Notes: generated by a model from the letters alone, not told the origin. DNA of 64,000 nt from Chloroflexota bacterium (GCA_028874195.1 JAPPLM010000044.1:1-64000); one strand, 5' to 3'; positions 51,927 to 55,377 are shown, counted from the first letter of the stretch. Numbers and translations are program-made.

Positions 51927-52376
51927 TCACAGGATTGACGCTTCCCGGTTCTGGCTAGATTTCTTTGGTCTCGTCATTACACAGTGGACTTCCCCATAAA
52001 GGTCGCCAGTGAGCACTTCCAAAGATTCGTGCTCCAAATCCTCAAAAGTGCCACATTTGCTTGTCCACCACCCACTTGGAAGCTGTCTAGCTGCGTGTGT
52101 CCACTCCCCGTTCTTGGCAAAAAGAGCTACTCTGTCAACTGCAGGCTCTGTTTCTAAGCCCACCACACCCTGATGATAACCCAAGGACTCAAACACCTTG
52201 ATGAGAGAGTCTATCTTGGGGCTACGCCCGACCGGCCAATAGTAGCCAACAGCGTGCGACCACCAACGCGTCGTATCCTCAGCCGCCCACGCTATGCAGT
52301 TATAGGCAACATCCTGTGGACTAGTGATGTTGTGGTTGTTCCCTGTCAATTTGGGCAAGTATTCAGACAAGCTCAA
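51927..52376 (-). CDS. DUF7689-like protein coupled to the R-M gene
   Basis: 149 residues from TTG 52376, which overlaps the upstream stop as TTGA and sits 10 bases after GGAGG; upstream in-frame sequence duplicates the R-M coding region and is rejected. Conserved-looking elements: YNCIAWAAEDTTRWWS (Cys27), YYWPVG, FESLGYHQG, EWTHAARQLPSGWWTSK (His94) and DLEH (113-116). The Cys...His arrangement recalls papain-like/NlpC-P60-type folds, but catalysis is not shown. I recall this pattern from DUF7689 proteins, often paired with a small WFWALxAITG protein. It is AT-richer than the flanking genes. Confidence 0.75.
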   Translation of the reverse strand: MSLSEYLPKLTGNNHNITSPQDVAYNCIAWAAEDTTRWWSHAVGYYWPVGRSPKIDSLIKVFESLGYHQGVVGLETEPAVDRVALFAKNGEWTHAARQLPSGWWTSKCGTFEDLEHESLEVLTGDLYGEVHCVMTRPKKSSQNREASIL

Positions 52377-55018
52377 TCTACGTAACCCTCCTCTCGGCCC
52401 CATTCCAGCCAAGCCTCCGTCATCCTCCCCAACTCGCCTTGTGCATTCTGTGGCACTGGGTCTTCGCCGGTAATAGCGTTCAATGCCCAGAACCAGTGAT
52501 CCGGATTGCGCTTTAGTTCTCGAAGAATAAAGGGCACAGCAGGCTTCCCTAGCCCAATAATCCGTTGATATGCCATGTGCAAGGCCATCTGGTGAGTGTC
52601 GCCGGGTTCCCGCGACTCTCGCCACTCTGCTGCTAGGCGATAGAATAGCTCAAATGTACTGGATGTAGGCTGAAGACGTGGTTGTTTCTTGCCTTTGACC
52701 CTGTCACTGAATTGAAACCACAAATCACTAATGTCATCCTCAATCTCTTCAAGAATGGAATTCGCGAGTCTTCTAGTCTCTTCGATTTCCTCGTACTTTC
52801 GGCGGAAATCTTGCTGAGCACTGAGGGGTGGAATAGGGATTCGGATATCTTTGAAAAGACTCTTGGGTATACTCCGCCGTCTGTCGACTGAACCGTGCAT
52901 CATAGAGCGATAGACTAGACGCATCTCGGCGCTTCGCAGCACTAACTCCATAAAAGTCAGATCAAGTTCAATGTCACTTGATCGAATCCTCCATATCGTG
53001 TAAGCAGGACTCACCGCAGCAAACTCATACTTCGTCTGGAACCCAAGCACGCCTTCGTCAATTGGAAAGCCAACAACCATTTCGTTTCTATAAACCTTCT
53101 TATAGTTCGATATATCTGTGCTCGCTACGCGTTTCTTAAACTTCTCCGATTGATCGACGAGACCGTGCTCACTTGTTATAGACATCACAGGTGCATTCGT
53201 AGATTCTCCTATGAGGTTTTTGTCGGGCTCCTCCAGTAGGTCGCCCAAACGAACCATCGGATATCTTGAACTTGTCCGTTGACTTGAGGTTAGTCTGTAA
53301 GGCGCGGCGTGCAACACATAGTCATTTACACGGACTCTGTCAGCATCTACGGCGTCTATACCCAACTGTTGCAAGTAAACTATCCCTTGCTCTTCCAACC
53401 GGTTTTCGGACAAGACTAACTCAAGATCGTTGCCGCCACCTAGTGGCCTACGGCGCTTATCGAGCGTGTATCCATCGTTGCGGACATCGAATACCCAGTA
53501 CCTATTGGCCTTGGTGGGTTTCTTTGCATCTGTGAAGTAGAGAATACTGGTTTTTGACCTGTTGTAAGGCTCAAACGCTCCTCGCGGCAGGGAAACTATA
53601 CTCTTTAGTGTTGCGTTCTCAAACAGGAGTTGTCGGACTTGCCGGTAAGCGGCTGAGTTGGTGTTGGACAGGAACCCATCGGGAACAATCAGTGCCATCC
53701 GTCCATCGGGCCTCAACGCTCTGAAACAGTGCTGTGGTCCGATGATGTCGCCATTCCTGCTGGGGACCTCGTAACGGTCTCCGTACCTCGTCTTCTGGGC
53801 GAACGGCATATTCGTGATAACAATGTCGTACTTGCTGTCCACCGGCGTAGCCAAGCTGTCCTGGCGAATTATGTTATTGTGTCCGTCCCCCGCTAGGATC
53901 ATGTTCATCTTGGCTATGCTCGCAGTCTTGGTAAGATCTGCCCCAAATACGGTATCTTGTCGGAGACGGCGTAGGTTCCCCTCGTTCCTCGGCATTGTGT
54001 CCATGAGGTATTTGTAAGCGACTGTCAGCATCCCTCCTGTACCACAAAAAGGATCATATACCGTTTCACCAATCTGCGGACGAACCAGTCGAACCATAGT
54101 CTTAACAATATGGCGAGGTGTAAAAATCTCACCTAAATCAGATGGGCTACTTGCACTGTATGAACGAATGAAGTACTCAAAAGCATCACCTTTGATGTCC
54201 GCGTTGATATCTGTTAGTTGTAAATCGCTCAGCCTGTTGATGATCGCCCTTAAGTTATCGGGATGGCTAATCTGGAGCGGTTGGAAGATGTTCTCATCTT
54301 GATATGCGTGACCAAACCATTTCAGGACTGTATCGCTAACGTAACTGAGTAACTCCTGACCTCTCTTGTAGCGAAATGCATCCCAACGGTAGTCCATGTC
54401 AATCGTAGACCGCTCTCCACGCTCTTCTTTGCCGTCTTCTATCTCACTGAGAACCTTGATGAACAGAATGTTAGCAAACTCTGTGAACCGTTCAATTCCT
54501 TGATGTAACCCCTCTTCGCGGAGAAGGTCATTCACGGTCGAGAATATCGAGATGAGATCGCTTCTCGACTGAACTACTTTCTTGTCCAGCGTAGACACAT
54601 CGTTAGTTTGAAGGAACCTAAGAGCTAGTGTTTCACGAATCAACTCGTCCAGATCTTCGCCATTTAGCTTAAGAGGTTGGTTTAGTTTGGTGTGAAGGGT
54701 CTTTGTGAATACACCATCGGTGGCAAATACGAGCGGAGCGTCAAGTCGCGAGGCGTACCAATGACCTTGGTTAATCGCCTCTTGCATATTCTGCCCCGGC
54801 TTCTTAGCTTCGATGACGGCGATAGGCTGGTCTGAATGGCTCCTATAGAGGGTATAGTCGGGCCTGCGACCCTCAAGGCGGCCCCTTTGTTCTTCAGTGC
54901 GGACACGTTGAAGGTAGACGTTTCGGTCTCTTGAGCGTGGATCGCTATTCCAGCCAAGGTTCCTTAGCTGGTTGTCAATCAGGATTTCAGTATCACGTTC
55001 GACCGCAAGTGTGGACAT
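52373..55018 (-). CDS. Single-chain restriction-modification protein: nuclease, N6-methylase, specificity and extra C-terminal domain
   Basis: 881 residues. Domain order: an HsdR_N-like PD-(D/E)xK nuclease region (RRPDYTLY with D54; AVIEAKK with E70 and K72); a helical linker of the HsdM_N type; an N6-adenine methylase with motif I DPFCGTGGML (322-331) and motif IV NMPF (403-406, a variant of NPPF); one HsdS-like target-recognition unit (about 580-770, with IPIPPLSAQQDF and a coiled-coil helix); and a separate domain of about 95 residues (787-881) with HMAYQRIIGLGKPAVPFILREL and HWFWALNAITGEDPVP. There is no DEAD/SF2 motor, so it resembles Type IIG or related single-polypeptide enzymes. The C-terminal domain is not a standard part of such enzymes. 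Confidence 0.88.
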   Translation of the reverse strand: MSTLAVERDTEILIDNQLRNLGWNSDPRSRDRNVYLQRVRTEEQRGRLEGRRPDYTLYRSHSDQPIAVIEAKKPGQNMQEAINQGHWYASRLDAPLVFATDGVFTKTLHTKLNQPLKLNGEDLDELIRETLALRFLQTNDVSTLDKKVVQSRSDLISIFSTVNDLLREEGLHQGIERFTEFANILFIKVLSEIEDGKEERGERSTIDMDYRWDAFRYKRGQELLSYVSDTVLKWFGHAYQDENIFQPLQISHPDNLRAIINRLSDLQLTDINADIKGDAFEYFIRSYSASSPSDLGEIFTPRHIVKTMVRLVRPQIGETVYDPFCGTGGMLTVAYKYLMDTMPRNEGNLRRLRQDTVFGADLTKTASIAKMNMILAGDGHNNIIRQDSLATPVDSKYDIVITNMPFAQKTRYGDRYEVPSRNGDIIGPQHCFRALRPDGRMALIVPDGFLSNTNSAAYRQVRQLLFENATLKSIVSLPRGAFEPYNRSKTSILYFTDAKKPTKANRYWVFDVRNDGYTLDKRRRPLGGGNDLELVLSENRLEEQGIVYLQQLGIDAVDADRVRVNDYVLHAAPYRLTSSQRTSSRYPMVRLGDLLEEPDKNLIGESTNAPVMSITSEHGLVDQSEKFKKRVASTDISNYKKVYRNEMVVGFPIDEGVLGFQTKYEFAAVSPAYTIWRIRSSDIELDLTFMELVLRSAEMRLVYRSMMHGSVDRRRSIPKSLFKDIRIPIPPLSAQQDFRRKYEEIEETRRLANSILEEIEDDISDLWFQFSDRVKGKKQPRLQPTSSTFELFYRLAAEWRESREPGDTHQMALHMAYQRIIGLGKPAVPFILRELKRNPDHWFWALNAITGEDPVPQNAQGELGRMTEAWLEWGREEGYVD

Positions 55019-55377
55019 TTGACTGCACTTCCTCTAAGTACACAATTGGGCGGTCATGAGGCCGTACACTCTTTCCGATTATGCTTTCCGGTGGCCCGAA
55101 TCAGAATAAACTTCGAATTCACCAACTAAAGCTGAGCGCAGTTACCAGAGAATGAGTTGCCAAGCGCACTGTGGCAAAATCCAAATACGCAATAGAATCA
55201 TAAAACTGACGCACCACAATAGTCTCTTACATACTTTGCCCGAACGTCCGTGATTGCTCTTGACTAGAGTTATGGTATCAGCCCAAAAGGGGTAGGACAA
55301 CCTTCTATCAGACAGAATTGGCGTTGGTTTCGGGATGGGAACGCCTATGCGCACAGGCTGCGCACGCGCGCAAACAG
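55019..55377. other. Intergenic region at the upstream edge of the R-M locus
   Basis: 359 bases, AT-richer than the core genome, between the R-M gene start and the hemW stop. I see no convincing gene, direct repeat or tRNA that would mark an insertion site. A short minus-strand open frame at 55142-55354 has no protein-like features. Confidence 0.55.

Follow-up and report, generated by a model that had tools for sequence, protein, structure and literature searches.

Why would a restriction-modification (R-M) enzyme end in a domain that elsewhere forms a small protein of its own, and why would its stop codon overlap the start of a gene for a protein of family DUF7689? This question is raised by a two-gene locus in a stretch of 64,000 nucleotides from a Chloroflexota bacterium (GCA_028874195.1, JAPPLM010000044.1:1-64000), here called the window. 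We refer to the C-terminal domain as W and to the DUF7689 protein as D. A preliminary description of this DNA had reported an 881-residue enzyme and a coupled partner, and we find both open reading frames where it had put them, on the minus strand. The features of the locus are as follows.

52373..55018, minus strand: single-chain R-M enzyme of 881 aa, consisting of a PD-(D/E)XK nuclease, an N6-adenine methylase, one specificity (TRD) part and the C-terminal W
54569..55018, minus strand: HSDR_N-type nuclease part, residues 1-150, with D54, E70 and K72 (Pfam HSDR_N, 1.8e-9)
53264..54568, minus strand: N6-adenine methylase part, residues ~151-585 (Pfam N6_Mtase, 5.5e-44)
52682..53263, minus strand: specificity (target recognition) part, residues ~586-779 (PADLOC Specificity_I, 3.1e-26 over 589-779)
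52376..52660, minus strand: W domain, residues 787-881, a helical add-on common to stand-alone WFWALxAITG proteins
52373..52376, minus strand: overlap of the W stop codon and the D start codon, TTGA, 4 bases
51927..52376, minus strand: D, a DUF7689 protein of 149 aa (Pfam PF24738, 8.7e-34)
55022..55037, minus strand: purine-rich stretch AGAGGAAG shortly 5' of the enzyme ATG, read directly from the sequence and a possible candidate for the ribosome-binding site

The 881-residue chain has type IIG-like features, with nuclease, N6-methylase and specificity parts all present, and these three parts, which the preliminary description had named, are matched by HSDR_N, N6_Mtase and the PADLOC specificity model, respectively. 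The nuclease residues D54, E70 and K72 are at the positions given there, and they are also kept in an orthologue from a second Chloroflexota genome (L025) and in two homologues that lack W. The methylase motifs DPFCGTGG and NMPF are found at residues 322 and 403, and HWFWALNAITGEDPVP begins at residue 841, within W. The enzyme is predicted to methylate and cut DNA at a defined site. The overlap of its stop with the TTG start of D, also noted earlier, is borne out by the sequence, and the corresponding overlap in L025 is GTGA. Translation of the enzyme and D is likely coupled through this stop/start overlap.

W could simply be a routine part of type IIG or type I-like enzymes, a condition under which the preliminary description would have withdrawn its idea of a novel system. 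In the profile searches that it had suggested for W and the partner, the partner is identified as DUF7689, and residues 787-881 have zero matches among Pfam, NCBIfam or PADLOC models. By querying plasmid records with residues 1-786, we found a homologue of 755 aa on an Acinetobacter baumannii plasmid (42.5% identity over 96% of the query) and one of 752 aa on a Geobacillus subterraneus plasmid (34% identity), both without W. The two proteins cover 96-97% of the R-M part and both stop where W would start. Because the same type of enzyme exists without W (755 and 752 aa), W is, on this comparison of sequences, a separate add-on domain of the window enzyme, in agreement with the separate domain at 787-881 that had been described. 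The W-less homologues, full-length and yet ending before W, rule out W as a routine enzyme part; most W loci contain no R-M enzyme at all, we found nothing that speaks for this reading, and we assign it practically no chance of being correct. Neither W nor D has a match in plasmid records (tblastn, E 0.01).

When a genome collection was scanned with W, 80 loci were obtained (131 confirmed candidates), the majority from cyanobacteria and planctomycetes, and in most of the loci a stand-alone W is followed immediately by D. The pairing of a small WFWAL protein with a DUF7689 protein, put forward in the preliminary description, is thus real in the fetched genome loci. Independent searches with D gave loci in which W stands intact and immediately 5' of D at 53 of the 53 assessable D places, a few of these being near-duplicates; in addition, one D place is truncated where its contig stops, and one match was false. 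W and D are a near-obligate pair of two adjacent or overlapping genes, with the presumed antitoxin first. D is present in 3 of 400 genomes of the phylum of the window and in 17 of 292 of the cyanobacterial phylum, and W is present in 14 of 392 genomes of the planctomycete phylum (two of them weak matches) and in 4 of 198 from the phylum to which a Nitrospira sp. belongs. When IMG/VR was searched, the D query matched five contigs and the W query none. W-D pairs are found on five IMG/VR contigs classed as viral (L105-L109), with D broken in L109, and phages or prophages may be vehicles of the pair.

The decay of the pair appears to have a direction. W is intact and the D behind it broken or missing in 5 of the loci found with D and in about 26 of those found with W, the latter count being biased by the use of W in the search, and the reverse, a broken W beside an intact D, occurs zero times among either set of loci. 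Decay of D with W left intact is what is expected if W inhibits D.

The orthologous locus L025 carries the same enzyme (77% identical), with W and an overlapping D. For the window and L025, dN/dS is <0.06 in W, <0.07 in the enzyme parts and 0.10 in D, and synonymous change has reached or almost reached saturation. Low ratios over (near-)saturated synonymous sites indicate that W and D are both under purifying selection, as judged from this pair of sequences. The GC content of the locus is 0.496 as against 0.59 for the window, that of the L025 locus is 0.483 as against 0.68 for its flanks, and the genes flanking the two loci are unrelated. DUF7689 is absent from all five genus mates searched, and one of these, G117, lacks the locus and has ~1.1 kb between the two flanking genes. 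Given the odd GC content, the differing neighbors and the absence in genus mates, the two-gene unit behaves as a horizontally acquired module. We found no tRNA, convincing repeats, or promoter or terminator signals at the ends of the inserted unit.

W is also joined to other restriction enzymes. In locus L091, a 986-residue protein with HSDR_N_2, N6_Mtase and specificity parts ends in W and is followed by D; outside W, its only match to the window enzyme is a distant one in the methylase (25%). In L192 (2-7874), from the search of the planctomycete phylum, a ResIII protein with terminal W lies beside an AAA_21 protein and an N6/N4 methylase. The L192 genes form a type III-like R-M cluster, and its contig ends inside W, so that any D gene would lie beyond it. 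In L159 (2600-6536), from the search of the cyanobacterial phylum, a ResIII/DEAD helicase with terminal W is followed by D; the helicase gene is split by one stop, and its second half bears W. W has apparently been joined three separate times to unrelated restriction enzymes (window and L025, L091, L192), and the fusions in window/L025, L091, L192 and L159 are best read as independent joins.

These fusions bear on whether the one in the window is incidental, that is, a chance read-through which joined a neighboring W-D pair to an R-M gene without functional coupling. Only a single lineage of the window type is known (two genomes), and few of all W loci contain a fusion, as an incidental event would have it. 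However, the fusion has been retained in two genomes that have diverged to 77% identity and saturated synonymous change with the W ratio still that low, and other restriction enzymes have been joined to W independently. W is recognizable in 80 loci and the dN/dS of the L025 unit is about 0.1 or less; for these reasons we do not regard the unit as a product of chance, and an incidental fusion seems to us very improbable.

If R-M enzymes are one kind of carrier of W, the others suggest what W may do. In L144, a SocA_Panacea domain (Pfam, 2e-23) is N-terminal to W, and in L140 a DUF433 domain (Pfam, 2.8e-22) takes this place, each with an intact D behind. These two are the only antitoxin-domain fusions above Pfam cut-offs, and they are by far the best matches when 70 N-terminally extended W proteins and 11 upstream proteins are scanned together. 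Panacea domains neutralize many toxins by direct binding, as shown experimentally (PMC8832971), and a role as antitoxins of PIN toxins has been predicted for DUF433 proteins (PMC2701414). A Phd_YefM match at the N-terminus of the W protein of L112, where D is intact, is below the cut-off (6.6e-4), and an N-terminal RHH_1 match in one W protein (0.002) is below or near it. Several N-termini of W proteins had looked RHH-, AF2212- or HigA/XRE-like by eye; profile searches gave no confirmation of these readings, and tblastn of the RHH-, AF2212- and XRE-like N-termini against plasmids gave no match. Short N-terminal profiles did give strong PDB matches, to designed or repeat proteins, and we attach no meaning to them. 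In most stand-alone W proteins a DNA-binding part cannot be recognized. An antitoxin-type domain is absent from most stand-alone pairs and from the window copy, where the R-M chain fills that place.

Other proteins lie upstream of W. An unnamed family of ~240 aa with the motif KIPEQYKSG is found directly 5' of W in L077, L080, L081, L095, L101 and L106, and in L050 a sequence resembling it is fused to W. A protein of ~95 aa lies 5' of W in L027 (7352-8697) and in L105 (4191-5429); the two are alike by eye and match no family.

D itself is matched by PF24738 with 117.2 bits against a curated cut-off of 22.6 (E = 8.7e-34), and DUF7689 is the sole Pfam family matched, with no match to an NlpC/P60 profile. 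Across 40 aligned D sequences, C27 and H94, which had been singled out in the preliminary description, are invariant, and so is H116, which had not been mentioned. In the structure model of D (pLDDT 92.7), C27 opens a helix, H94 is in strand 91-98 and H116 is the last residue of strand 113-116, so that the modeled C27-H94-H116 on helix, strand and strand follow the NlpC/P60 order of catalytic Cys, His and polar residue. The top fold matches of this model in the PDB are mostly of NlpC/P60 type and weak (2hbw, the best, at E 0.077; CwlO, LytE, RipD), as is the best viral match found with Foldseek (E 3.2e-3). D is probably a cysteine hydrolase with a Cys27-His94-His116 center, as the model suggests, and it appears by eye to be cytoplasmic, with no evident signal peptide. 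W is modeled as an all-helical domain and has no PDB match in Foldseek, and sequence searches of the PDB with W or D gave no meaningful match. We found no open-access paper that mentions DUF7689, a family of unknown function, and the reading proposed below is its first functional proposal.

A hydrolase-like D next to W could also be a processing enzyme, a cysteine protease or amidase, that switches the fusion partner of W on or off, with W as the adaptor; D would, for example, cleave the R-M chain or a fused repressor. The conserved Cys-His-His and the protease-like predicted fold fit such a role, as do the many unrelated proteins that bear W and the fact that D is never seen without W. However, W and its fused partner often outlast D, which is then missing or broken; this would be odd for a needed regulator, and the two best-matched fusion partners of W are antitoxin families. 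We consider this reading rather unlikely.

We therefore return to W as an inhibitor of D. What we observe is the architecture of the locus, the overlap, the near-obligate pairing, the repeated grafting of W, purifying selection and horizontal movement. We think it probable, while well short of certain, that W-D is an undescribed type II toxin-antitoxin-like cassette whose W is carried here by an R-M enzyme, which holds D until the enzyme is inhibited or lost. D would be the harmful partner, presumably a cysteine-hydrolase effector, and W would bind and neutralize it. The usual carrier of W would be a small DNA-binding antitoxin or another small protein, and the release of D would be governed by whichever protein carries W. 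In the window, W would have been grafted onto the C-terminus of the R-M enzyme, and translation would pass from the enzyme directly to D through the overlap. An intact enzyme, present in the cell, would keep D silent. Inhibition, unfolding or degradation of the enzyme by a phage product, or loss of the unit, would free D, which would outlive the enzyme and stop the cell. The unit would then be a restriction system with a built-in backup for abortive infection or addiction. In this scheme the toxicity of D, its neutralization by W, the trigger and the substrate of D are what we infer. A broader version, in which W is a portable lock, repeatedly grafted onto restriction enzymes that each guard a linked papain-like toxin, as a general integrity-guard design, is conceivable and we put it forward more tentatively, as something slightly short of an even prospect. 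If true, restriction and abortive infection would be joined in one design, with a new class of toxin.

The operons that hold W-D behind a gene of family TIGR04255 allow another view of the cassette. In about a dozen operons a TIGR04255 gene is followed by W-D (L102, 7000-8713; L031, 6866-8706; and others). In 21 genomes searched for TIGR04255, the position of W-D is elsewhere filled by another recurrent protein with a motif around LTQSCDL, and proteins with such a motif (QGDYLPGCLVP...LTQSCDL-like) are seen in L221, L222, L227, L229, L232 and L236. W-D looks like one of several exchangeable effector-like cassettes behind TIGR04255 genes. It could accordingly be imagined as an effector cassette that serves conflict systems in general: a sensor fused or linked to W, here the R-M chain, would activate D on infection. 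The exchange of W-D for another effector-like protein at the same position and the fusions of W to a helicase and to restriction enzymes are in line with this. Bare fusions to antitoxin domains (DUF433, Panacea) are, however, hard to read as infection sensing, and the loss of D with W retained fits an inhibitor. Activation by a sensor is to our minds quite improbable.

Under the preferred reading, W as antitoxin and D as toxin, the connection with defense still has to be located. The preliminary description had proposed a role in defense or self/non-self recognition and had made its idea depend on an enrichment of the pair near defense genes. We tested the neighborhoods in a limited form, with PADLOC on 20 loci, comparing 144 neighbor proteins with 148 control proteins (the neighbor output came without a per-protein match list), and such an enrichment was not borne out: scattered matches occur among the control proteins too, and this test does not show a general enrichment of defense genes around stand-alone W-D pairs. 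The sole clear R-M signal is that of three cytosine methylases in related cyanobacterial loci. In two of the loci, L052 and L100, D is lost or a remnant and a DNA cytosine methylase is directly behind W (at about 5081 and 8340, respectively). In L037, which is related to these loci, D is retained. Of the proposed role, the part that stands is the joining of W to restriction enzymes, and the part that does not is a clear enrichment of defense genes around the stand-alone pair. Because the neighbor test gave no convincing enrichment, the link of W-D to restriction and defense rests on fusions and not on neighborhoods, and because W is elsewhere fused to recognized antitoxin domains, we sharpen the proposed role to that of a toxin-antitoxin-like module.

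Several known systems resemble parts of this locus. In the order of its parts (nuclease, N6-methylase, a single specificity part) the window enzyme agrees with type IIG enzymes, and no translocase was found in the chain; it differs from them in the extra W and the coupled D gene. In the MADS defense system, MAD2 is a methylase and MAD5 a specificity protein; the fusion partner of W in L091 resembles both (1.1e-86 and 8.2e-27), and the match of the window enzyme to MAD2 is weaker (2.7e-32). Membership in MADS is rejected, as the MAD2 scores are 111.9 (window) and 291.6 (L091) bits against a cut-off of 720, and no other MADS genes adjoin the window enzyme. D shares with NlpC/P60 and papain-like hydrolases a Cys at the start of a helix followed by a His and a polar residue on strands, but it has no match to their sequence profiles and its fold scores are weak. 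With type II toxin-antitoxin systems such as PanAT and DUF433-PIN, W-D shares two small overlapping genes with the antitoxin side first, modular antitoxin N-termini and a patchy distribution, whereas W would be a different neutralizing domain, with no fold match in the PDB, and D matches only DUF7689.

The proposed holding of D is closest to the logic of PrrC/EcoprrI, which it would follow by analogy. PrrC, an RNase, contains an ABC NTPase domain and associates with a normal Hsd complex. D matches DUF7689 alone and neither an ABC NTPase nor an anticodon nuclease. In EcoprrI, a type Ic R-M complex keeps the anticodon nuclease latent, and a coupling of immunity with suicide systems was proposed in a hypothesis paper of 2012 (PMC3506569). 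In both cases a harmful protein, as we propose D to be, is encoded with an R-M system and would be silent until restriction fails. In the locus described here, however, the presumed toxin is a cysteine-hydrolase-like protein, and it would be held by a dedicated extra domain that is common to a free-standing gene pair. The locus and its relatives offer a concrete architecture for the coupling of immunity and suicide, in which a part that antitoxins carry elsewhere is covalently attached to restriction enzymes. With the partner gene behind the W-bearing restriction enzyme, the coupling hypothesis becomes testable with two genes.
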